A stretch of DNA of 64,000 nt. It comes from Microbacterium sp. ProA8. Lineage in GTDB: Bacteria; Actinomycetota; Actinomycetes; Actinomycetales; Microbacteriaceae. The notes beneath the pieces are model-generated. The model was not told the origin of the DNA. It did no database searches and saw only the letters and a program-made list of their open reading frames with translations. The stretch lies in assembly GCF_039905635.1 (NCBI RefSeq), contig NZ_CP157000.1:2294001-2358000 (forward strand). Direction: 5' to 3'. Both the position numbers and the translations under genes were made by a program. Shown here piece by piece: positions 4,565 to 63,153 of the stretch; position 1 is the first letter of the stretch, and each line of letters starts with the position of its first letter.

Positions 4565-5967
4565 GGCGCGACCGCCAGCGGGATGTGCGCACCGACCGAG
4601 GTCGGGCCGCCGACGGGGCTCGTGACCACGAGCAGTCCGCGCAGGCCCGCGAGGCGCTCGCGGAGCCCCTCGAGGCCGTGGCCCGACGTGATGACCGCGC
4701 CGCCGCGGCCGTTGTCGACGACCCACACGTCGAGGTGCGTGGGCGCCCCCGTGGCGTTACGGCGGAGCGAGGCGCGCACCGTCGCGGCGGTCGCACCGGA
4801 GTGCTTGACGGCGTTGGTCATCAGCTCGGCGACGACGAAGTACACCGTGCGCGCGACTTCGGGGCTCACGGCGTGGTCGATCGCCGGATCGATCTCTGCC
4901 TGCACCCACAGTGGGGACGTGGTGACCAGGGCGTCGAGCGCGGCGGACAGGCCGCGGTCTTGCAGCAGCGGTGGCGCGACGCCGCTGGACAGCGCACGCA
5001 GCTCGTCGAGCGCCGCCTTGGCATGACCGCGTGCTTCGCGCGCCAGCTCGGCGGCGGCATCCGCGTCTCCTGACTCGGCTCGACGCTCCAGCGCCGCGAG
5101 ATCCATCTGCAGCCGCACCAGGCGCTGCTGCGGACCGTCGTGGATGTCGCGCTCGAGGCGACGCAGGGCGACGTCCTCGGCGTGCACGGCGGCACCCCGG
5201 GCGGCCGCCTCGGCGCGCACCTCGGCGGCGAGCTCATCCGAGTTCCAGCGGCCGAGCATGCCGCGGGCGATGGCGTGGTGGCCCCGCGCCAGCCCGCCGA
5301 GCACCCACGGCATCGTGGCCGTGAAGAGGATGCCGGCGATGAGGTAGAGCGTGACCTCGACGGCCCAGCTCGACCAGCCGCCGAACAGCCACGGCACGTA
5401 GTCGGCGACGTACTGACCCCATTCGCCGCCGGAGCCGTCGTCGTTCCAGCCCCGGGGCAGGAACAGCCCCCAGAACCAGTAGGTGAGGCCGCCGAGGCCG
5501 ATGCTCAGCCACACCGTCGTCAGCGCGAACGAGATGGTGCTGACGATCGGGTTCACGATCATCCCGTGCACGAGATAGAGCCAGTAGTGCCCGTTGCGGA
5601 TGGGACGCGTGAGCGTCATCCAGAAGCCCGTGCTGTCGGTGGTGTCGCGGTTCCACTCCGGCTCCGGGATCTCCGGGAGGCCGGTCAGCAGCAGCAGGAA
5701 CCTGTCCGCGACGCCGAAGCCACGGGCGATCAGCAGCGTCAGCACCCCCAGCGGCAGACCGATCAGGATGACGAGCAGGCCGACGCTCGTCCAGAACAAC
5801 GGCGCCAGCACGCTGATCGAAAGCATCGCCAGGACGAAGACCGCGAGGAGGTAGACGGCGCTGCCCGGCGTGCGGATCCAGGCTCGCCCGTAGGACGCCC
5901 AGAACCCGGTGACGGGTCTGGACGCGTCCGGCTGCAGCGGGGCTGGCTCAGTGGTCGTGACGGTCAT
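4561..5967 (-). CDS. sensor histidine kinase (HisKA_3, NarX/DegS class)
   Basis: The N-terminal half (about residues 25 to 240) holds several membrane segments of the putative-sensor type. The dimerisation/phosphoacceptor block ERDIHDGPQQRLVRL contains the predicted phospho-His near residue 277. The ATPase domain has NAVKHSGA (N box) and GHGLEGLRERL (G box) near residues 385 and 429. The start overlaps the end of the multicopper oxidase gene by 20 bases and the stop overlaps the regulator start. The three genes therefore look like one leftward operon. Confidence 0.9.
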   Translation of the reverse strand: MTVTTTEPAPLQPDASRPVTGFWASYGRAWIRTPGSAVYLLAVFVLAMLSISVLAPLFWTSVGLLVILIGLPLGVLTLLIARGFGVADRFLLLLTGLPEIPEPEWNRDTTDSTGFWMTLTRPIRNGHYWLYLVHGMIVNPIVSTISFALTTVWLSIGLGGLTYWFWGLFLPRGWNDDGSGGEWGQYVADYVPWLFGGWSSWAVEVTLYLIAGILFTATMPWVLGGLARGHHAIARGMLGRWNSDELAAEVRAEAAARGAAVHAEDVALRRLERDIHDGPQQRLVRLQMDLAALERRAESGDADAAAELAREARGHAKAALDELRALSSGVAPPLLQDRGLSAALDALVTTSPLWVQAEIDPAIDHAVSPEVARTVYFVVAELMTNAVKHSGATAATVRASLRRNATGAPTHLDVWVVDNGRGGAVITSGHGLEGLRERLAGLRGLLVVTSPVGGPTSVGAHIPLAVAP

Positions 5968-54926: not shown

Positions 54927-55108
54927 CAGGACTCCTCAGCGATGAGGTACCGGAAATCGAACACCCGGTCAGCAACCTCATGAAGGCGCTTCCAATACTT
55001 CGTGCCGTGATGTCCGCAGTACCCGAGCTCGTGGTCACCGATCTCGACGAATACGTACGCTTGCGCGCCGCACTCCTTGCCGTCACACCGTCTGGTCGCG
55101 TCAAGCAT
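54926..55108 (-). CDS. DUF7455-like zinc-binding protein
   Basis: The 60-residue product begins MLDATRRCDGKECGAQAYVF and has ELGYCGHHGTKYWKRL. The CDxxxCGAQA...CxHHG pattern is that of a small actinobacterial/actinophage zinc protein family of unknown role. A GTG seven codons... further up (VKAGVVM) is a possible earlier start. It follows a perfect 16-bp hairpin. Confidence 0.8.
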   Translation of the reverse strand: MLDATRRCDGKECGAQAYVFVEIGDHELGYCGHHGTKYWKRLHEVADRVFDFRYLIAEES

Positions 55109-55135
55109 GACGACACCCGCTTTCACGCGGTTAGT

Positions 55136-55172
55136 GCAGTCCCACCAGACACCTACTGTCTGGTGGGACTGC
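55136..55172 (-). other. perfect 16-bp stem-loop
   Basis: GCAGTCCCACCAGACA and its exact complement TGTCTGGTGGGACTGC are separated by 5 bases. It lies between the phosphoesterase gene and the DUF7455-like gene and has no T-run, so it may be an RNA-processing or attenuation element rather than a standard terminator. Confidence 0.85.
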
Positions 55173-55269
55173 TGAAGTTCCCGACCTGTCGCCCTCGTCC
55201 GCACAGTGCACTTATCAGGCTCGCTAGCCCGTTCAATCGTTCGTTGCGGGATTGACAGGTGGAAGTTGG

Positions 55270-56418
55270 TTACGGTTCGACGAACTCGAGCGCGTACACG
55301 CCTGAGTCCTTGACCGTGAAGGTGGTTATCGACGGTTTCGAGTGCTCGCCGGTCTTGTTCTCGAACCATGCCGAGCCGGCATCGAACATCGAACACGACA
55401 CGATCGCCCGACCACGTGATTCCCGGTAACCGGGCTGGTGGAAGTGACCGTGGCACACGATCCGCGCGTCAGCCATCGGAGACCGTGTAGACGCCGCCTG
55501 ATTCGCAACCCACTGCGGGATGCGGTCATACGTGCCTGCATGGTGTCCGTGAGTGAACGCAACCACGGTGTTGTCGACTGTGACGTACGTGATGACGTCA
55601 TACTTCGTCGGCGGGTAGTGGAATGTCAGGTTGAACCGGTTCGGGGCGAGGAGGTTGAAGGACTCCTCGACGGTCTTGGCGATCCCGATGCCGTGGTCTG
55701 CGTAGCCGACCTTCCCCATCGCGTTACGCACCTCGCCGTGGTTCGACGGGACCGCGGCCACATGCGTTTCGCCCGCGTAGGGGGCAAGGGTCAGGATCGC
55801 CTCAGTGAGACGACGCTGCCACGCCTGCAACTGTTCCGGAAACTCCATCGTGTTCGTTGCGATCTGGTTGGGCGCCGACGAAGTGATGCCCTCAACAGGG
55901 TCACCGTTGTCCGCGATAACCAGAACACTCGGGCGCTGCTGCTTGACCTTCCAAGCCACCTTCGCAAGAGCCTGCTTGTACCGGTTGTCGAGGTCGCCGG
56001 GTCCGGTCGAGTCCGGTCCGTCCTTGCCGAGCTGACCGTCTGCGAGACACACCACCATCGGGAGGCCGGGGGTCTTAGCAGGCTTGATCGGCTTCGCCGG
56101 CCGGATCAGTGACGCGAGCCAAGCAGCCCCGGGCGACTCCTCGTCGGGCGTGATCCGCTCGAACTGGAAGAAGAACGAGTAGGTGTCTTCGCGGTCATGA
56201 TGGGTCTTCGTCCACTGTGACGTCTTGCCCACGATCCTGAACGCGTCGGGATCGATGCCCGCGAGTTGGAGGAGGGTCCGTTCGTCGGACACCCTGCCGC
56301 GGACTGCGCCCGTTGCAGCTTCGCCCTTACCGGTCTCGTAGTCGAGCTCGGAATGCTTCTGGTACTTGGTGGGCGGTGTCGGCAGCGGTGCGTCGTTGAG
56401 GCGGTCCGTGAGGCTCAT
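55270..56418 (-). CDS. calcineurin-like metallophosphoesterase (SbcD/Mre11-like)
   Basis: The 382-residue product holds the metallophosphoesterase motifs in order: CLADGQLGKD, DNGDPVEG, VPSNHGE, FTHGHHAGTYD and CHGHFHQPGY. The first motif is degenerate (Asp-Gly-Gln for Asp-x-His). Phage members are often called nucleases, but activity is unproven. Start ATG overlaps the stop of the gene upstream by four bases. Confidence 0.85.
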   Translation of the reverse strand: MSLTDRLNDAPLPTPPTKYQKHSELDYETGKGEAATGAVRGRVSDERTLLQLAGIDPDAFRIVGKTSQWTKTHHDREDTYSFFFQFERITPDEESPGAAWLASLIRPAKPIKPAKTPGLPMVVCLADGQLGKDGPDSTGPGDLDNRYKQALAKVAWKVKQQRPSVLVIADNGDPVEGITSSAPNQIATNTMEFPEQLQAWQRRLTEAILTLAPYAGETHVAAVPSNHGEVRNAMGKVGYADHGIGIAKTVEESFNLLAPNRFNLTFHYPPTKYDVITYVTVDNTVVAFTHGHHAGTYDRIPQWVANQAASTRSPMADARIVCHGHFHQPGYRESRGRAIVSCSMFDAGSAWFENKTGEHSKPSITTFTVKDSGVYALEFVEP

Positions 56419-56648
56419 GCGAGACCCCGCTTCACACGCCACGCACGGAACGCCGTGTCCGACATGTCCGGGGCACCCTCGGAAACCAGTTCCTTCAACA
56501 GGGCCACATGACCCCACTCAGGGTTCGATGCGGCGTTCAGGATGACTGCCTGCTCACCCTCGGGGCGAGACTCCAACCACACATCCATGACGGATCGGCC
56601 GGGGCGGTACTTCGCTGGCGGTGCAGCGAGACGATCGATGAGTCCCAT
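56415..56648 (-). CDS. small phage protein (77 aa)
   Basis: ATG at 56648 follows GGGAGCGACC. The product reads MGLIDRLAAPPAKYRPGRSV, then SRPEGEQAVILNAASNPEWG and a C-terminal basic helix (DTAFRAWRVKRGLA). The layout suggests a small HTH-like DNA-binding fold similar to a resistance or terminase-like regulator. It heads the phosphoesterase operon after a long leader. Confidence 0.75.
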   Translation of the reverse strand: MGLIDRLAAPPAKYRPGRSVMDVWLESRPEGEQAVILNAASNPEWGHVALLKELVSEGAPDMSDTAFRAWRVKRGLA

Positions 56649-56911
56649 GGTCGCTCCCAATGGGTTGGGTGCACACTCCCCCGGAAAGCGCGGGGCGCGT
56701 ACACAGGGAAAGTGAAAGGCGCCGACCTCAGCACCGCGTTGGCGGTCTGGCTCCGGCTGTGACGGTCACCGCGCTTAGCGAAGGCGCGTGTTACGACCGT
56801 GTTTGGGTATGGTGGCCGGCTCCTGGGCGCGGCCTTCCTCAACCGAACTACGGGGTCGCCGCTGCCGGGAGGAATGCGAAAGGCCGCTTTCCGGGCATGC
56901 GGAAGCGACCT
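56649..56911 (-). other. untranslated leader, about 260 bases
   Basis: No convincing gene is seen between the promoter at 56912 and the start at 56648. Read leftward it contains a stem GGTCGCTTCC/GGAAAGCGGCC near 56882 to 56910 and GC-rich segments. A frame of 101 codons here (56537 to 56842) overlaps the next gene antisense-frame and lacks coding character. Confidence 0.6.
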
Positions 56912-56947
56912 ACGTCAGATTATACACACACGAACGTTCGTGCGCAA
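56912..56947 (-). promoter_or_regulatory. strong leftward promoter with a palindrome in the spacer
   Basis: Read leftward: TTGCGC (56947 to 56942), a 17-base spacer, and TATAAT (56924 to 56919). The spacer holds CACGAACGTTCGTG, a perfect 14-bp palindrome (56942 to 56929), an ideal repressor site. It lies in the gap between the genes at 56953 and 56648. Confidence 0.8.
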
Positions 56948-56952
56948 TACCT

Positions 56953-57228
56953 CTACTCGATCGATTCGGGGGAGAACACGAGGCCGGGGTTGAGTGCGGC
57001 ATCGAATTGCAAGCGTCGCTCGTCATGCAGGCAGTCTCGACAGATGCGCATGACCCACGGCGCGCGACCGCCGTTCGCATCCGAGCCAGGCCACGCGATC
57101 GCGCGATAGTACGGCGTCCCGGCCAACATGCCTCGGCATCCGTCGTTCCGGACCTCGCATCGGTGGAACTTGCGGGCGACGACCGCCCATCCCACGTTGT
57201 CGTACTTGTCGTCAGGCAGACGGATCAC
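56953..57228 (-). CDS. phage hypothetical protein with Cys pairs
   Basis: The 91-residue protein starts MIRLPDDKYDNVGWAVVARK and has HRCEVRNDGCRGML and ICRDCLHDERR, two pairs of Cys that may bind zinc. Start overlaps the stop of the DUF7341-like gene (ATGA). No function recognised. Confidence 0.77.
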   Translation of the reverse strand: MIRLPDDKYDNVGWAVVARKFHRCEVRNDGCRGMLAGTPYYRAIAWPGSDANGGRAPWVMRICRDCLHDERRLQFDAALNPGLVFSPESIE

Positions 57229-57869
57229 GGCGTGCTCCCATCCGTGTGGTTAGGCATCTGTTCGAGTTCGTAGGCGAGTTCTCGTGCTCCCCACCTCTTG
57301 TCGCAGGCGCGGCAATGAGCCGTGGACTCGTCGATCAACGACCGGTCAGGGTTCCTAGGTGATTCGACGACAAGGGGGCGTGGGTATCGTTCCCCATCCC
57401 TCCACCACTCCACAGCACCACAGGTTGGGCAGGGGTCGGGGAGGTCTTTCTGTCGGGGTGGTTCAATCTCCCTACGGATGGATGCTTCCCAGCCGGCGAG
57501 CAGACGCACCCGCGCCGTGACGTTCTGTGGTTCCCGTTCCGTCTGCGTCCATGCCACATACCAGGCCCGCAACGTCCGCCCCGGATCACCCTTGTACACG
57601 GTTGCTTTCGCCCCATGCGCCCAATCCGTGATCTGCGAACTGATCCGCATGAACAGTTGGAGGGCGCCGGAGTTGATCGGTACCCGCTGATTCGGGAGGC
57701 TTTTGGACCCTTCCCGGGACAGGGAGAAACGGATCTCGTTCTCCAACCGGTCCAGAAGGGGCGTGTCGAACACGACACACGTGAACCGGGAATCCTGAAT
57801 CGTGTGATGCAGGACCCCCGGCTTCGTCAGACTGTCAACAGCGTCGAGGAGTTCGGTGAGTTCGGTCAT
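57225..57869 (-). CDS. phage protein with C-terminal zinc ribbon (DUF7341-like)
   Basis: The 214-residue protein is helical at the N-terminus (TELTELLDAVDSLTKPGVL). A zinc-ribbon-like C-terminal part has PCPTCGAVEWW and HCRACDKRWG about 40 residues apart. Such proteins are widespread in actinophages without known role. Confidence 0.8.
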   Translation of the reverse strand: MTELTELLDAVDSLTKPGVLHHTIQDSRFTCVVFDTPLLDRLENEIRFSLSREGSKSLPNQRVPINSGALQLFMRISSQITDWAHGAKATVYKGDPGRTLRAWYVAWTQTEREPQNVTARVRLLAGWEASIRREIEPPRQKDLPDPCPTCGAVEWWRDGERYPRPLVVESPRNPDRSLIDESTAHCRACDKRWGARELAYELEQMPNHTDGSTP

Positions 57870-57875
57870 AGTGGG

Positions 57876-58001
57876 TCAGTAGTCCTTCCGTCTCGACTCC
57901 TGCGCCTCATACCAAGCCCAGTACTCTTCAGCGTCCGGGTTGTAGTCGTCGTCTTCGGGGTCGTCGGACCCGTGCGGCGGGTAGCCGGTCATGAACGTCA
58001 T
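57876..58001 (-). CDS. small acidic phage protein (41 aa)
   Basis: Reads MTFMTGYPPHGSDDPEDDDY and continues with EEYWAWYEAQESRRKDY. It is packed between neighbours with 3- and 6-base gaps. Very acidic with many Trp/Tyr, perhaps a nucleic-acid mimic or protein-binding peptide. Function unknown. Confidence 0.68.
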   Translation of the reverse strand: MTFMTGYPPHGSDDPEDDDYNPDAEEYWAWYEAQESRRKDY

Positions 58002-58004
58002 GCG

Positions 58005-58283
58005 TCAATCCCTTTCGGCTTGGTACGCGGCTTGGCAGCCTTGGCAGTGATCGAACCCGTCGTGGTCCCAAAGGTCCGCCCGCTGGAACTGGTCGAGTAT
58101 CTGCTGCGGGGTTAGGCCGTCCTCACTGCGCCACCCGGAGCCGTCGTCATGGACGATGGTGACGACGCAACCAGGCTGCGCCGCCTCCACAAGCGCCTTA
58201 AACGCGACAGGATCGGTAGTGGGTGTGACGAGCGGGCCGACGATTGTTGATGCGTGAGACAGCACCACACCGAGTTCGGTCAT
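58005..58283 (-). CDS. small phage protein with CxxC (92 aa)
   Basis: Starts MTELGVVLSHASTIVGPLVT at an ATG overlapping the stop of the gene upstream by four bases. It ends in DHCQGCQAAYQAERD, a CxxC with an adjacent His. No family recognised. Confidence 0.74.
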   Translation of the reverse strand: MTELGVVLSHASTIVGPLVTPTTDPVAFKALVEAAQPGCVVTIVHDDGSGWRSEDGLTPQQILDQFQRADLWDHDGFDHCQGCQAAYQAERD

Positions 58284-58450
58284 AGTGGTTTCCCGTGGCC
58301 CTTCAACCCACAAGACGGCAGAATCGCCCCGTCAACATCCCGTGCAGTCCCCACCATCGGGTTGTCACACCAGAACGCACACGTCCACGACGACCGGGCC
58401 TCCTCACGAACACCGTCCGGGATCGGATCACGCTTCGGCTTCTTACTCAT
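58280..58450 (-). CDS. small phage protein (56 aa)
   Basis: Reads MSKKPKRDPIPDGVREEARS, then SWTCAFWCDNPMVGTARDVD. A CxxxC and a third Cys are present. Start overlaps the methyltransferase stop and its stop overlaps the next start (both ATGA), so it is firmly embedded in the operon. Confidence 0.74.
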   Translation of the reverse strand: MSKKPKRDPIPDGVREEARSSWTCAFWCDNPMVGTARDVDGAILPSCGLKGHGKPL

Positions 58451-59466
58451 GCGGCTGCTCCTAACAAGGTCAAGGCCAGTGCGGCCTGTTGCGGTACGAC
58501 GCCGTTACCGAGCGCCTTCAACTGCTGAGCGCGCGTCAACCCAACGTCCGTGACGTGGCCCTCGGGGAGGCCCATCATCCACTCCACGAACCGGGCAGAG
58601 AGTCGGTGAGCTCCGTTTCGTCCATCGGGAGCGGTTGGGGAAGGGGCCAACCTTCCGATGACGTGTTCCCACCGTCGAATCGCGGGTTCGTAGTCGCGCC
58701 AAACCGAGTCCGAACCGTCAGGTCCGTCAATGTGACGTTCGACGTGTTCGATCCCCCCGACGCTCCCGAGTCCATCGCCGTAGGCGTCGGCAGAAGGTGC
58801 TCCACCTCGTCGGCCAACGTCGGCCCGTGACCTCCCGTTTTCCGCTTGTCCGGGTGCTGAGATCCCCCGTTGATCGCGGGCTGAGCGGTCGGTGTCTTCA
58901 ACAGAACCTCGCCCTGCGGCCGGTTCTCGTTCGACCGCTCCGCCCCCAGCGCGTACATCGTTTCTGTCCCCGATGCTCCACGGCTGGCCCGCGGGGTAGG
59001 CAGCGATGAAGATACGCTCCCTGCGGTGTGGAGCGCCGGCTGCGGAAGCTGGAAGGCAAACCCACCTTGTGTCATACCCGAGCTCGGCCAGGTCTCCGAG
59101 AACTCTGTCGATTCCCAGAGTGAGATGACCCCGGACGTTCTCCAGGACGACGAGGCGGGGTCGTAGCTGGCGAATGGCGTCTTTGATGTAGGGCCAGAGG
59201 TGTCGTTCATCGTCGGCTCCTTTCCTCTTCCCTGCGATGGAGAACGGCTGGCACGGGTAACCCGCGGTGAGTACTTCAATGGGCGGGAGCGTCGACCAGT
59301 CGAGGGTGGTCAGATCCCCGTAGTTCGGGATGGTCGGCCAGTGGTGCTCGAGGATCTTGGACGGCGCCGTGTCGTACTCGACATGCCACGCCACTTCCCC
59401 GCCGAGAACTTCCATAACGCCGAGGTCGAGACCGCCATAGCCGGAGCAGAGCGAACCGATCTTCAT
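58447..59466 (-). CDS. DNA (cytosine-5) methyltransferase
   Basis: The 339-residue protein has C5-methyltransferase motif I (GSLCSGYGGLDLGV), IV with catalytic Cys (GYPCQPFSIAGKRKG), VI (VVLENVRG), VIII (APHRRERIF) and X (LKALGNGVVPQQA). It methylates a specific site in DNA, most likely to protect phage DNA. No cognate endonuclease is adjacent. The variable recognition region (residues about 155 to 290) is the part that is also read in another frame as a second protein. ATG at 59466 shares a base with the stop upstream. Confidence 0.92.
   Translation of the reverse strand: MKIGSLCSGYGGLDLGVMEVLGGEVAWHVEYDTAPSKILEHHWPTIPNYGDLTTLDWSTLPPIEVLTAGYPCQPFSIAGKRKGADDERHLWPYIKDAIRQLRPRLVVLENVRGHLTLGIDRVLGDLAELGYDTRWVCLPASAAGAPHRRERIFIAAYPAGQPWSIGDRNDVRAGGGAVEREPAAGRGSVEDTDRSARDQRGISAPGQAENGRSRADVGRRGGAPSADAYGDGLGSVGGIEHVERHIDGPDGSDSVWRDYEPAIRRWEHVIGRLAPSPTAPDGRNGAHRLSARFVEWMMGLPEGHVTDVGLTRAQQLKALGNGVVPQQAALALTLLGAAA
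58575..59210 (-). CDS. nested overlapping gene inside the methyltransferase gene
   Basis: A frame of 211 codons lies wholly inside the methyltransferase gene, shifted relative to it. Its ATG is preceded by AAAGGAG at ideal spacing. The product is Pro/Ser/Thr-rich with ASYDPASSSWRTSG, EFSETWPSSGMTQGG and repeated LPTP (SSSLPTPRASRGASG, HLLPTPTAMDSG). These resemble segments found with phage C5 methyltransferases, so the frame is probably real. It could be a partner of the enzyme; that is inference. Confidence 0.62.
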   Translation of the reverse strand: MNDTSGPTSKTPFASYDPASSSWRTSGVISLWESTEFSETWPSSGMTQGGFAFQLPQPALHTAGSVSSSLPTPRASRGASGTETMYALGAERSNENRPQGEVLLKTPTAQPAINGGSQHPDKRKTGGHGPTLADEVEHLLPTPTAMDSGASGGSNTSNVTLTDLTVRTRFGATTNPRFDGGNTSSEGWPLPQPLPMDETELTDSLPGSWSG

Positions 59467-59648
59467 CAGATCAACCGCTCCCCGCTGGGTCCGAGCCCAT
59501 TGCCCCAGTAGGCGCCGGGGCCGGGCCGGAGCGGAGCCGGGTGTGCCTGATCCCATGCGACGTTGTACCCGAGGTCGTTGACGCACCCACGGCACACCTC
59601 AATTTCGCCCTCCACCACGATTAGTTCGTGAGGTCCGGGGTCTCTCAT
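59466..59648 (-). CDS. small phage protein (60 aa)
   Basis: Reads MRDPGPHELIVVEGEIEVCR with VCRGC then a Pro/Gly-rich end (LRPGPGAYWGNGLGPSGE). One-base overlap with the methyltransferase start and a four-base overlap with its upstream neighbour support it. Function unknown. Confidence 0.72.
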   Translation of the reverse strand: MRDPGPHELIVVEGEIEVCRGCVNDLGYNVAWDQAHPAPLRPGPGAYWGNGLGPSGERLI

Positions 59649-59806
59649 GCGGTTCTCCTTGCGTTGGGGCAGTCGGGTCGTCCCCCCGTGAACGGGTTCC
59701 GACAGTTACCGCACACATGCGGTGGGGGTTCGGGTGCAGGGTTGAGAACAGCCGTCAACCACTCCCGCTCCTTACGGGACACCCGGTCATGCGCAAACCG
59801 GTCCAT
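59645..59806 (-). CDS. small Cys-rich phage protein (53 aa)
   Basis: Starts MDRFAHDRVSRKEREWLTAV and ends with HVCGNCRNPFTGG then DCPNARRTA. Three Cys and a His make a small zinc-knuckle-like end. The start lies two bases after the SSB-like stop; a longer in-frame reading inside the SSB-like gene is rejected. Confidence 0.7.
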   Translation of the reverse strand: MDRFAHDRVSRKEREWLTAVLNPAPEPPPHVCGNCRNPFTGGRPDCPNARRTA

Positions 59807-59808
59807 GG

Positions 59809-60186
59809 CTAAAAGGGCAGGTTCGGGTCTTCGGTGGCCCATGCGTCCACAGGCTCGGCAGCAGGAGCGGTACGCGCGCTCCCGGCGAGCTCCACCGCGT
59901 CGGCCCACACAACGAGGTCGTAATACGTCTTCGCCCCGTCCGCAGACTTCTTCGACTCGGTGACTTCCCGACCCTCAAAGGTGATCCGGTCGCCCTTGTT
60001 GAACCGCTCCAGGGAGATGCCCGAGTTGCGGGACACCTTGAGCGTGCGGAAGGTGCGGCCAACGGTTTCCCAACGGTCCTGGTCGTTCTTCCGGGAATGG
60101 GGTTCGGATGTCTTGAGTCCCCATGCGCCGTTGTTGCCGATGAGCACTTCTTCAACGAACGCGCTGTCTACGGTGAGCTTTGCCAT
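59809..60186 (-). CDS. phage single-stranded DNA-binding protein
   Basis: The 125-residue protein has an OB-fold pattern (WETVGRTFRTLKVSRNSGIS, FNKGDRITFEGREVTESKKS) and an acidic C-terminal tail ending EDPNLPF, the Pro-Phe tip by which SSBs bind replication proteins. It likely coats ssDNA in phage replication. TAATG overlap with the nuclease gene upstream. Confidence 0.82.
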   Translation of the reverse strand: MAKLTVDSAFVEEVLIGNNGAWGLKTSEPHSRKNDQDRWETVGRTFRTLKVSRNSGISLERFNKGDRITFEGREVTESKKSADGAKTYYDLVVWADAVELAGSARTAPAAEPVDAWATEDPNLPF

Positions 60187-60599
60187 TAGTCGTCTTCCTC
60201 TTCGTCGTGTGCGACTGGGCAGTCGCAATGGTGTTTGGGTGTGCCGCCGAGGAGGATGGTGAAGTCCTCGAGGCGGAGTATCACGTACTGGTCTCCCATG
60301 GACCCGCGCCCGTATCCGCGGCGTTTCGCGACAACAACACCCATGGCTGCGTCGGCGTGCCCTGCTTCGATTTGGGCTTCTGTGATCCATCCGGCGAGGT
60401 CGATGCGGTTGTGGTTCTTCGCTTCGACACAGATGGGGCCGGCGTGACTGTTGAGTCCGGCGATGTCGCCTTCGTCGCGTGCGCCTTTGCGGGCGCGGCG
60501 TTCGATGGTGCGGGTTCCGAATGCTTCCCGCCAGTAGTCGACGAGCCAGGTTTCGAAGCTGGTTCCGGCTTGACGGGCGGTGCGATGTGATCTGGTCAT
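60186..60599 (-). CDS. VRR-NUC/Holliday-junction-resolvase-like nuclease
   Basis: The 137-residue protein has an Arg-rich start (RARKGARDEGDIAGL) and the E-x-K block ICVEAKNH, with Asp in DEGDIAG, as in RecB-like/PD-(D/E)xK nucleases of the resolvase type. It would cut branched DNA or help packaging. A C-terminal HHCDCP and acidic tail are unusual additions. Confidence 0.8.
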   Translation of the reverse strand: MTRSHRTARQAGTSFETWLVDYWREAFGTRTIERRARKGARDEGDIAGLNSHAGPICVEAKNHNRIDLAGWITEAQIEAGHADAAMGVVVAKRRGYGRGSMGDQYVILRLEDFTILLGGTPKHHCDCPVAHDEEEDD

Positions 60600-60934
60600 G
60601 CGGCGGCCTTTCGTCGGCGTTCGGTAGCGGTCTGCCCACCACGGATCGACCAGCGATCCCAGGACGGTGCGTCAGCAAGGCACATGGCGCGTACCGGGCA
60701 GGACGCGCAAATCTCCTTCGCTGCACGTGTCGGACGCCACTCGTCTTCCTCGGTCGGGAAGAACAACTCCGGGTCGGTGGTCGCACAGGCTGCGTCGTCC
60801 ATCCACCCCCGGGAGACGGTGTCTTGTCCGCGCTGGGTTTTGCAGTCCATGCAGTATTTGGTGCGGATGCCGTCGTTCTTCACTTCACGTTTCAGGCCGC
60901 ACCGTGGGCATGCTGCGTGGGGGTTTCCGCTCAT
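60596..60934 (-). CDS. WhiB-family Fe-S transcription factor with extra N-terminal zinc ribbon
   Basis: The 112-residue protein has the WhiB core: CATTDPELFFPTE, then EICASCPVRAMCLADA giving the four Cys for a [4Fe-4S] cluster, a Gly-rich turn SIRGGQT and a basic tail (TERRRKAAA). Before it lies ACPRCGLKREV and KYCMDC, a typical zinc ribbon. WhiB proteins of phages can block host WhiB function and superinfection. The ATG at 60934 overlaps the regulator stop. Confidence 0.9.
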   Translation of the reverse strand: MSGNPHAACPRCGLKREVKNDGIRTKYCMDCKTQRGQDTVSRGWMDDAACATTDPELFFPTEEDEWRPTRAAKEICASCPVRAMCLADAPSWDRWSIRGGQTATERRRKAAA

Positions 60935-61206
60935 GTGGTTCTCCGGTATCTGGGGTTTGCTTTGAGGCCGTGTGAGCGGCGGATTTGGGCGATGGTGCCG
61001 ACTGTGGGCCAGACGAGCTCGGTGGCGATGTCGGCGTCGCACATGCCGGCGATGACACGGGAGCGGACGGCTTCTCGGAAGTCGCGGCCGTGGCGTTGGC
61101 GTAGGAGTTCGTCGCGGAGGACTTGTCCGGGTGTGATGCCGCGGCGTTCCGCCGTTTCCTGGATGCGCCACACGTCTTTCGGGTCCAAATCCACCTGAAT
61201 CTTCAC
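60931..61206 (-). CDS. RHH plus HTH DNA-binding regulator
   Basis: The 91-residue product (GTG at 61206 after GGAG) starts with a ribbon-helix-helix pattern, KIQVDLDPKDVWRIQETAER, and continues with a helix-turn-helix-like part (MCDADIATELVWPTVGTIAQ, IRRSHGLKANPRYRR). Two DNA-binding folds in so short a protein suggest a transcription factor or a DNA-organising protein. A hairpin precedes it. Confidence 0.75.
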   Translation of the reverse strand: MKIQVDLDPKDVWRIQETAERRGITPGQVLRDELLRQRHGRDFREAVRSRVIAGMCDADIATELVWPTVGTIAQIRRSHGLKANPRYRRTT

Positions 61207-61225
61207 GGGTCTCCTGGTATGCAGT

Positions 61226-61254
61226 GAGGGCCACACCATTACGGTGTGACCCTC
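61226..61254 (-). other. leader stem-loop of the RHH/HTH gene
   Basis: GAGGG-CC-ACACC and GGTGT-GA-CCCTC pair over 12 positions, with one weak centre, around ATTAC. It sits about 20 bases upstream of the ribosome site. It may be an autoregulatory target or terminator for the mini-genes. Confidence 0.65.
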
Positions 61255-61317
61255 GGGGTATGAGAAACGGCCCCCTACCCGAAGGAAAGAGGACCGTGGA
61301 GTGGGTACGGCTGAGTG

Positions 61318-61422
61318 CTATTCGGCCGGTTTGGTGCACCTAGCGCAGTCGCAGTGTTCTCGGCACACGAAATGGTCGAACGCGATGACGGGACAGCCTG
61401 GGATGGCGCAGAGGATCGTCAC
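61318..61422 (-). CDS. Cys-rich mini-protein (34 aa)
   Basis: GTG start overlaps the stop of the gene upstream. The peptide reads TILCAIPGCPVIAFDHFVCR then EHCDCARC, six Cys and two His in 34 residues, enough for one or two zinc sites. Function unknown. Confidence 0.65.
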   Translation of the reverse strand: MTILCAIPGCPVIAFDHFVCREHCDCARCTKPAE

Positions 61423-61559
61423 GTCTGGCTCCGTTCGTTGTGGTCGCAGTCGGTGCAGGTACACGACACCCGCCGACAGCCTGTGTGTTCGGGTGTGGAT
61501 GGGTGGGCGCAGTACCCGGACATGGTCATAGGGACACGGTGAGAGGCGGCGGCGGTCAT
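61419..61559 (-). CDS. Cys-rich mini-protein (46 aa)
   Basis: Reads MTAAASHRVPMTMSGYCAHP, then GCRRVSCTCTDCDHNERSQT with five Cys and two His near the C-terminus. ATGA overlap upstream and GTGA overlap downstream. A start at the internal ATG (61529) would give 36 residues. Confidence 0.65.
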   Translation of the reverse strand: MTAAASHRVPMTMSGYCAHPSTPEHTGCRRVSCTCTDCDHNERSQT

Positions 61560-61636
61560 CGCCCCGAGCCTCGAACAATCGCGTCACGGATTGCGTAGCC
61601 GAGCACGATCGCAGAGAGCACGAGAATGACCTCCAT
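61556..61636 (-). CDS. mini membrane peptide (26 aa)
   Basis: AAAGG lies upstream of the ATG. The peptide MEVILVLSAIVLGYAIRDAI and a basic end (VRGSGR) make one short membrane helix. One-base and four-base overlaps with neighbours support it. Confidence 0.6.
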   Translation of the reverse strand: MEVILVLSAIVLGYAIRDAIVRGSGR

Positions 61637-61872
61637 CACTGCACCTTTCGGTAGTACCTGTTGAAGTTGGTTTCATTGATCCACCGAACTGGGACACGAC
61701 CACCCGGTCCCGGTTGCGCGTCGACACGCGCCCACCCCAAATAGTTCGGGGTGTTCCTGCGGGGTCTCGCGTCCACAATCCGCACCGGGGTATCGAACCG
61801 GACCCATGTGCCCGCGTACTGTTCCAGCAGGTGTCCGCGGGCCGTGAGCACCGCATCAGACATGCGCCTCAC
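61636..61872 (-). CDS. phage hypothetical protein (78 aa)
   Basis: GTG at 61872 overlaps the stop of the gene upstream; ATG at 61863 is the alternative. The product has ARGHLLEQYAGTWVRFDTPV and VRWINETNFNRYYRKVQ, a small beta-rich basic protein. No family recognised. Confidence 0.74.
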   Translation of the reverse strand: MRRMSDAVLTARGHLLEQYAGTWVRFDTPVRIVDARPRRNTPNYLGWARVDAQPGPGGRVPVRWINETNFNRYYRKVQ

Positions 61873-62207
61873 GACTCCACCTCCTTCAACTCTTTCAGCC
61901 GGCGCACTTCAGCCCAGTACGCCTTGATCCCCGTCTCGGAGAACACATGCTTCTCGGGTTCCAGTTGCCGGCGAATCCTCGCTTCACGCTCCCGCGCCTC
62001 CAACACGCGACGCGCGTTACGAATCACATGCACCGGCATCAACCAGTCCGACGACTCCCGGTAGTGCAGGGTCGCGGCCTCCACAGCCACATCCAGGTCC
62101 ACCCGTTCAAGATCCTTCGCCCACACCGCAGCAACCGCCTGATCCACGGTCCTACCGTCACGGGCTGATGCCAGCGTCAATAGCTGGAACGCTTCCCTGA
62201 GATCCAT
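61869..62207 (-). CDS. phage hypothetical, possible replication accessory protein
   Basis: The 112-residue helical protein starts MDLREAFQLLTLASARDGRT and has AVAAVWAKDLERVDLDVAVE and a charged C-terminal coil. It overlaps the replisome-organiser-like gene by 50 bases. Position after such a gene often holds a helicase loader, but no ATP-binding site is present, so this is only a guess. Confidence 0.72.
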   Translation of the reverse strand: MDLREAFQLLTLASARDGRTVDQAVAAVWAKDLERVDLDVAVEAATLHYRESSDWLMPVHVIRNARRVLEAREREARIRRQLEPEKHVFSETGIKAYWAEVRRLKELKEVES

Positions 62208-62928
62208 TACCGAACAACCTCCTGTACTCGGCCGCATTCACAGCGGCTTTCGACTGCTTCGGTCCGTGACGCTGCTGGTCACGTTCCGCGAACCCCTGCT
62301 GCTTCCGCATGCCGTTGTGCCAAACCGATTCCCAGTCCTTCATCGCCTTCCCGACTCCACGCCAGTAGTCGATGAACTCGGGGAGCACCTTGTCGATGTC
62401 GACGAGGGGGACGTTCTCTGCCGCCCACTGCCTCATGCGATCGGTGATGGTGAAGTTGGCGGGGATGGGGTGAGCGCGCTTGCGCGGACTATCTCCTTCG
62501 TTAGAAGGAGATATCTCTATCCCTGTCTCTATCTCTGTTGGCGTGTGTTGGCTCGTGCTCAACACCTGTTCAACATGTGTTCGACGTTTGTCGGCACTTG
62601 CCCGCCCTGCACGGCTCCGTTTCTCGGTCAGCGCGTCCCGGTCAGCCTTCGTGAACTGATGCTCCGCGTAGTCCCGCAGCACGTACTCGTCACCGTCGCG
62701 GAACATGAGCGGTCGGGTGGGGTGTGAGGCGCACAGCTCGTCCAACGCGGCGGTCGGCCACATGAACTCGGCGTCGGCAACCTCTATGCGCCCGTCTGAT
62801 TCCCTGACCCTCGAGTACCCGTTCGCTTCGATGAACGTTCGGAACGCGGAGTCGGACAGTCGCGACACTTTCTGGTGTGTGGCGAAGTCGATGGGGAACG
62901 TCATGTACAGGCGTGAATCACGTGGCAT
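62158..62928 (-). CDS. replisome organiser/DnaD-like replication initiation protein
   Basis: The 256-residue protein has an N-terminal winged-helix-type domain (FPIDFATHQKVSRLSDSAFR, TKADRDALTEKRSRAGRAS) and a C-terminal block HPIPANFTITDRMRQWAAEN, FIDYWRGVGKAMKDWESVWH common in phage replication proteins. A low-complexity linker (STSQHTPTEIETGIEISPSN) joins them. It probably binds the phage origin and recruits host helicase. Confidence 0.8.
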   Translation of the reverse strand: MPRDSRLYMTFPIDFATHQKVSRLSDSAFRTFIEANGYSRVRESDGRIEVADAEFMWPTAALDELCASHPTRPLMFRDGDEYVLRDYAEHQFTKADRDALTEKRSRAGRASADKRRTHVEQVLSTSQHTPTEIETGIEISPSNEGDSPRKRAHPIPANFTITDRMRQWAAENVPLVDIDKVLPEFIDYWRGVGKAMKDWESVWHNGMRKQQGFAERDQQRHGPKQSKAAVNAAEYRRLFGNGSQGSVPAIDAGISP

Positions 62929-63153
62929 TCAATCCCCTCTCTCGGGGTTGCTGACGGGGTAGTGGTTGAGCGCGAACCGCACCGCGGCAAGGTCAACCGA
63001 ACACACCTCGTTGATCTCTTCGACGGTCCACCCGTGCTGAATCCACAACGCGCGGATCGCGACATCTCTCTGCGGCCGCGACGGGCCTGCCGCGTAGCCA
63101 ATGAGCGTTTCTACCCACGGGTCGTCGCGGCCGGGATATGACTCTGACGACAT
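62929..63153 (-). CDS. phage hypothetical protein (74 aa)
   Basis: Reads MSSESYPGRDDPWVETLIGY, then RDVAIRALWIQHGWTVEEIN and LAAVRFALNHYPVSNPERGD. The second half looks like a small helical HTH-type fold, perhaps a DNA-binding accessory. The stop lies next to the start of the replication gene. Confidence 0.73.
   Translation of the reverse strand: MSSESYPGRDDPWVETLIGYAAGPSRPQRDVAIRALWIQHGWTVEEINEVCSVDLAAVRFALNHYPVSNPERGD

Follow-up and report, generated by a model that had tools for sequence, protein, structure and literature searches.

A probable two-chain cytosine-C5 methyltransferase encoded in two frames of one stretch of DNA

Within the window (the whole stretch of 64,000 nucleotides that was analysed, to which all unqualified positions refer), a gene for a cytosine-C5 methyltransferase contains a second long open reading frame. 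Does this nested frame encode a protein, and if it does, what would that protein contribute to the enzyme? The methyltransferase ORF, here called N (frame 0, the catalytic chain), occupies 58447–59466 on the minus strand and encodes 339 amino acids. The nested ORF, here called L (the +1 frame, the proposed target-recognition subunit), lies wholly inside N at 58575–59210 on the minus strand, begins with an ATG at 59210 and encodes 211 amino acids. An earlier note on this DNA had described a 211-codon ORF inside a C5 methyltransferase gene, repeated segments in its product, a nearly ideal ribosome site before its ATG and a likeness of both frames to phage methyltransferases, and each of these points was borne out. 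L contains two LPTP units, one LKTP unit, YDPASSSW and TWPSSGMTQGG. The internal Shine-Dalgarno sequence AAAGGAG (59217–59223, minus strand) ends 6 bases upstream of the ATG of L and lies within the codons for the N segment KRKGADDE. N matches phrog_363 (3.1e-73), and L matches phrog_1008 (6.4e-25). No Pfam or NCBIfam family matched L, and an Rfam scan of 57000–61000 gave no match. Genes of phage type are found nearby (55000–63000): an exonuclease-like gene (55270–56517, phrog_284), a RusA-like resolvase (60186–60599), a WhiB-like gene (60596–61339) and a replication-initiation-like gene (62158–62928). These neighbours are consistent with a prophage in what is presumably an actinobacterial host.

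N has a cytosine-C5 catalytic domain: it matches PF00145 (1.4e-38), TIGR00675 (108 bits, cut-off 100.65) and HhaI (3.7e-18), and it contains PCQPFS and ENVRG. What we take to be motifs I, IV (PCQ), VI (ENV) and VIII, named by eye and from recall, are followed by the shadow of the module array of L and then by a C-terminus like motifs IX and X. The C-terminal region (58450–58692, minus strand) has a IX-like segment, RLSARFVEWMMGLPEGHVTD, and an X-like segment, QLKALGNGVVPQQA. N is taken to have motifs IX and X: it matches phrog_363 over residues 1–333 and phrog_1008 over residues 252–337 (4.1e-37). The interval of ca. 100 residues between VIII and IX is the shadow of the L frame and evolves almost freely, and the Pfam alignment of N ends at profile position 168 of 324. 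The phrog_1008 profile joins modules like those of L to a methyltransferase C-terminus, and residues 252–337 of N match its far end. Since L and the C-terminus of N match the same profile, L modules are fused elsewhere, in one frame, to the C-terminus of a methyltransferase.

L consists of a head, an array of modules and a tail, all on the minus strand. The head (residues 1–69, 59004–59210) overlaps motifs VI–VIII of N. Module 1, an LPTP module (58902–59003, LPTPRASRGASGTETMYALGAERS...EVL), and module 2 (58794–58901, LKTPTAQPAINGGSQHPDKRKTGGHGPTLADEVEHL) belong to module families found among L homologues, and module 2 has near-invariant columns in A1. Module 3 (58707–58793, LPTPTAMDSGASGGSNTSNVTLTDLTVRT) is similar to an LPTPTAMDS...VTL module of low-GC phages. 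The tail (58578–58706) overlaps the start of the C-terminal region of N. Modules are ca. 30 amino acids long, with LPTP at one end and, judged by eye, a TL- or PL-like pair towards the opposite end, and their order and number differ between relatives. Some L proteins have an insert of ca. 90 residues between modules that looks by eye like a helix-turn-helix (..KELSNLIDVKLSTVEHWFR.. in locus L072; likewise L015); L075 and L076 have the same coordinates as L072 and look like copies of it. A profile of 48 L proteins found no match among solved structures (PDB), even at E=10.

Homologues of L are widespread. 1593 of 2613 candidate proteins matched at E<=1e-3 (120 of these are listed, and 24 of the 120 were read). 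L matched 193 of 50,697 phage records, and 76 viral loci were obtained. More distant L proteins, used as queries, matched 58, 113 and 10 phage records (overlapping sets) and 4 and 12 of 72,556 plasmids. Among the hosts of matching records are Mycobacterium, Streptomyces, Arthrobacter, Gordonia, Propionibacterium, Paenibacillus, Lacticaseibacillus, Bacteroides, Synechococcus, Microcystis, Acinetobacter, Salmonella and Pseudomonas; the frame assignments come from the loci fetched rather than from every matching record. Phage relatives with L in the +1 frame of a C5 methyltransferase gene range from 33 to 71% GC. Within the phylum of the window, 6 of the 296 genomes searched have a match, the window's own genome included, so the gene is sporadic there. 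Some GenBank records annotate both frames as overlapping genes, among them Paenibacillus phage Bloom (56/57) and ArV1 (067a/067b). In the phiBT1 record (NC_004664) only the N ORF is annotated (gp9.1, described there as 'DNA methylase may be inactive'); the +1 ORF that overlaps it, with modules, IX and X, carries no annotation.

The start of the nested frame was examined in 83 representatives of 144 loci. Two designs were found, both built from synonymous codons of N. Where the PCQ motif of N is followed by Asp-(Asp/Glu)-Arg, 33 of 33 loci use GAT for the leading Asp, creating an ATG; in 10 of the 33, the first module detected was not in +1. GAT was chosen in 9/9 loci at 50% GC or more, against 9/69 upstream Asp/Asn codons, and in 24/24 at lower GC, against 100/198. 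Three loci have EDSR instead, which cannot form that ATG, and are without it. AAGG-like words are frequent upstream of the ATG; 13 of 28 ATG sites are without any listed Shine-Dalgarno word. Where N has ENVRGxxS, the Arg is AGA or AGG in 21/28 loci (13/178 upstream) and the Ser is AGT in 23/28 (5/179 upstream). Together these choices create an AGAGG- or AGGGG-like site, 7–8 bases and then a GTG. Fisher values for the two biases are 2.5e-14 and 4e-21, with ancestry ignored. Five more ENVRG loci, left out of these counts as their first detected module is not in +1, all have AGR and AGT. The rare AGR and AGT codons of the internal start in L067, L089, L114, L123 and L139, whose first detected module lies outside +1, suggest a +1 chain that was recently lost or went undetected. 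To judge from codon choice, the internal start is shaped by selection.

The relatives distribute the same parts between frames in several ways. L067, L089, L117 and L123 are single-chain enzymes whose LPTP modules are read in frame, after motif VIII and before motif IX, and residues 212–338 of L123 match phrog_1008. Shauna1 too has in-frame LPTP modules in this interval, with two further modules in +1. This phage (L080) has a second annotated DNA methyltransferase gene (gp72, 4623–5360 of that locus) close downstream of gp67. The N ORF of phiBT1, Vash and ArV1 terminates, and modules, IX and X are carried by a +1 ORF. In L131 and L132, once the catalytic ORF has ended, the +1 ORF continues through modules, IX and X; the frame pattern of L133 and L134 is the same. 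In low-GC and proteobacterial relatives, by eye, L has a IX-like LNPxFVEWMMGFPxxWT and N has an X-like segment. When all frames of eight hand-picked loci (L152–L154, L157–L161) were read by eye, N had motifs I–VIII and an X-like end in 8/8, and a +1 L had modules like LPTP, WPTP or WATP, only weakly so in L158, and a IX-like end in the same 8/8. L155 agrees with that layout though its start is cut off, and L156 has modules, IX and X all in +1. The window belongs to a subclass in which IX and X are both in N.

The proteobacterial-type set comprised 25 loci (22 from the search and three named phages). In these loci the +1 frame of N has 0–4 stops, usually one, compared to 8–28 in +2. In 20 of the 25 a +1 ATG or GTG lies 4 bases after the start assumed for N, and nearly all of N is therefore overlapped. 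L extends 103–607 bases beyond N in L163, L164, L171, L173 and L182. Modules were found in frame +2 in L008, L105, L108, L110, L111, L114 and L136, with the C-terminal region also in +2 in L110, L111 and L136; the model proposed below does not explain these, and they may reflect decay, sequencing error or a third arrangement. Modules were detected with a set taken from the 120 listed homologues of L, so very divergent ones are missed, and the WATP and WPTP modules of Paenibacillus type were recognised by eye only.

The modules of L are like those between VIII and IX of single-chain enzymes, and the IX-like segment in L and the X-like segment in N point to a division of a C5 methyltransferase into catalysis and recognition. 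The locus is thus quite probably a two-chain cytosine-C5 methyltransferase encoded in two frames of one stretch of DNA. Frame 0 would give a catalytic chain with motifs I–VIII, then a linker, tolerated and no more than a shadow of the other frame, and then X (in the window also IX). The +1 frame, entered at the internal ribosome site, would give a target-recognition chain in which a head is followed by the LPTP array, each module being a candidate for a swappable unit of target recognition. By our reading, the residues that recognise the target would lie in the nested frame and not in N. We infer that L is translated in the cell and that the two chains, made separately from one mRNA, then assemble; the specificity and role that we propose are the methylation of several short sites by the assembled enzyme, which would shield phage DNA from restriction.

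It is improbable that ribosomes instead pass from frame 0 to +1 by programmed frameshifting and make one long chain for both catalysis and recognition. A single shift would join all motifs in phiBT1, Vash, ArV1, L131 and L132, as well as in L133 and L134 if their frame pattern is followed, and in the accessible part of their paper the authors of PRFect count methyltransferases, with this family not named there, among genes 'known to contain a frameshift' (PMC10885494). However, the window and the low-GC class would need two shifts, frame 0 is kept open through the array (see below), which a shift would not require, and codon choice builds start sites.

The chance is similarly small that L is translated but works independently of the methyltransferase, for example as a DNA-binding decoy, a regulator or an anti-restriction protein. 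Many mycobacteriophage loci have modules in both frames, and a +1 chain is thus not needed there to supply a target-recognition domain, so that L could be an extra. PF00145 aligns to catalytic chains over profile positions 4–180 (L154), 1–227 (L152) and, in the low-GC chain L016, 1–322 of 324; this near end-to-end alignment counts against a motif split, and the absence of motif IX from L016 is a judgement by eye alone. On the other hand, the modules resemble the VIII–IX region of single-chain enzymes, a IX-like segment stands at the end of L in low-GC and proteobacterial relatives, and L is naturally fused to motifs IX–X in some loci, though in one such fusion (L128) the end of PF00145 (249–323 of 324) was matched at a sub-threshold E=0.052.

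Substitution was compared as the mismatch at N codon positions 1/2/3, where position 1 is the third position of L and position 3 its second. Among 834 pairs, in which loci are reused many times, the rates were.134/.097/.383 upstream of the overlap,.180/.108/.292 over the head,.352/.114/.108 over the array and.164/.102/.317 over the tail. Substitutions in the array are concentrated at the third position of L, so the array evolves as an L gene. In a second set of mostly new loci (the window and up to 11 others are common to the first), +1 modules gave.354/.099/.092 and frame-0 modules.134/.093/.373; modules are conserved in whichever frame reads them as LPTP. When each locus was used once (47 disjoint pairs), position 1 was faster in 37 of the 40 scorable +1 comparisons, position 3 in two, with one tie; for frame-0 modules, position 1 was faster in 0 and position 3 in 13. 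The variable region of the proteobacterial set gave.367/.140/.093 (36 pairs). The window's own array gave.188/.052/.021 and.305/.117/.074 against its nearest relatives, L001 and L002, which is the pattern expected with the nested frame as the conserved one.

The head over motifs VI–VIII and, in the window, the tail of L over the C-terminal region of N have intermediate rates, and two-sided constraint is seen in both. Compared to L002, the window head gave.132/.000/.147 and the part upstream of the overlap.116/.071/.412; the window tail gave.106/.000/.152 and.170/.022/.217 in pairwise comparisons. A similar head pattern (.263/.147/.276) in 12 pairs with the first module outside +1 counts against a special role for the head.

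A further possibility is that insertions and deletions move modules between frames, with off-frame modules held as a silent reserve of specificities. The module frames 11000, 100, 1110000, 0000 and 111 among related phages invite this idea, and as history it can still be true. Yet at the protein level +1 modules are constrained just as frame-0 modules are, and they follow a start site that is under selection. They therefore give the impression of being in use rather than stored, and a silent reserve is very improbable.

Openness of the nested frame was assessed by synonymous-codon permutation of N. In the window, the nested frame was open in 2.1% of shuffles (P 0.021). P was below 0.05 in 48 of 59 representatives (median 0.001) and at least 0.05 in 11; these P values, like the others given here, take no account of common ancestry among the loci. 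The overlap permuted was delimited by the nested ORF's own stops, and stops were therefore also counted in a region defined without L. In 58 of the 59 representatives (L001, which has no anchor motif, was left out; 13,331 codons) this region has 34 stops in +1 and 886 in +2, and it is fully open in 45/58 in +1 and 0/58 in +2. The 42 low-GC relatives (9,506 codons) have 5 stops in +1 and 786 in +2, and the nested frame is still open at 33–45% GC. The two closest relatives, L001 and L002, are free of stops in the nested frame, and homologues of its product exist beyond methyltransferase shadows, as modules in frame 0 of single-chain enzymes and in separate ORFs fused to IX–X; the earlier note had named the opposite of both as grounds for giving up the nested gene. 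An untranslated shadow, open only through the composition of the methyltransferase protein and high GC, is barely credible: long spurious frames do arise in high-GC genomes, the mapped +1 modules all lie within methyltransferase loci, and the window's P is only 0.021 with 11 of 59 representatives at or above 0.05, but the shuffles, the stop counts down to the low-GC relatives, the substitutions at the nested third position, the disjoint pairs, the codon bias at the internal start and the finding of such modules in other frames all speak against it, and it was rejected. The nested ORF is real.

Frame 0 was examined in the same way. Position 1 of N within the array changes at.35–.40, about the speed of position 3 upstream of the overlap; N residues in the array are nearly free, and openness is what selection keeps. 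Synonymous-codon permutation of L in 56 representatives gave 288.5 expected frame-0 stops, with 0 seen and P<0.05 in 52 of 56. N was traced to its own stop, so openness up to that stop is presupposed; N continues beyond the end of L in nearly all representatives (exceptions are L008 and, at a contig edge, L069), so the openness is not an artefact of how the ORF was cut. A dead frame-0 shadow in the array was rejected on this reverse shuffle. Both frames are kept open, and both products, N and L, are therefore likely to be translated, as far as sequence evolution can indicate. The earlier note had proposed that, if both frames are translated, the recognition region is dual-coding and strongly constrained by it. 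The first part stands, as selection maintains both frames and the nested one has a start and a family of its own; the second does not, as N residues in the array are near-free. Mutual constraint along the whole overlap was rejected, the two-sided pattern being confined to the head and, in the window, the tail of L.

It is fairly likely, though somewhat less so than the two-chain reading of the locus itself, that a widespread class of phage and plasmid cytosine methyltransferases keeps its recognition subunit in +1 as a mosaic of interchangeable modules that could also be read in frame 0. The specificities would be separately evolvable, and the annotated 'variable region' would be a shadow. As part of this wider reading, the recognition subunit of some proteobacterial phages would be in +1 from the start of the gene onward. 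If this is true, the annotation of many phage methyltransferase genes is misleading: what is labelled the variable region does not do the recognising, and the domain that does is recorded as a second 'DNA methyltransferase' or a 'hypothetical protein', or goes unannotated. It would also be clear why predicting targets from such methyltransferases on their own might not succeed. The nested genes, on the same strand as the genes that contain them, would form a large family open to comparison, with labour clearly divided between catalysis and recognition, in which the origin and cost of gene overlap are measurable. Their short recognition modules, which vary in order and number, would amount to a natural list of parts.

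Two-chain C5 enzymes are already known, as is the overlapping annotation of both genes in some records. PHROG describes both phrog_1008 (L) and phrog_363 (N) as 'DNA methyltransferase', but the overlap, the division of labour and the module array are absent from the family descriptions shown. No paper describing a dual-frame module array was recognised among those listed by a literature search whose coverage mostly excluded subscription journals. As in a two-polypeptide C5 enzyme, the window has two overlapping frames, both under selection. In one such enzyme, M.EcoHK31I, the small chain is encoded within the gene of the large chain, in another frame. According to the accessible part of the source, M.EcoHK31I (YGGCCR) has motifs I–VIII and X in its large chain, where the target-recognition domain is also predicted, and IX in its small chain (PMC3404938). 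Compared by this described motif layout rather than by sequence, the low-GC and proteobacterial relatives show, by eye, a similar motif split, but here the target-recognition domain is apparently in the nested chain, as an array of several modules. The window differs further in that IX is on the large chain and not on the small one, and it was not assigned to this type.

M.AquI (CYCGRG) has, in the same accessible text, a large chain with I–VIII and part of the variable region and a small chain with the rest and IX–X, and fragments of split C5 enzymes are described there as complementing in trans (PMC3404938). The layout of phiBT1, Vash and ArV1 is like that of M.AquI as so described, whereas in the window the catalytic chain itself reaches IX–X, the nested chain is without both, and the nested gene is wholly inside the other. 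The multispecific Bacillus phage methyltransferases are single chains. Tandem target-recognition units are described, in the accessible part of the source, for the Bacillus phage C5 enzymes SPR, phi3T, rho11 and H2 (PMC8936443). These enzymes, as described there, resemble the window in having tandem units in a phage C5 enzyme. Single-chain relatives of the window do carry such units in frame; in the window, in contrast, the array is in the other frame and not within a single chain, and the order and number of its units vary between relatives.
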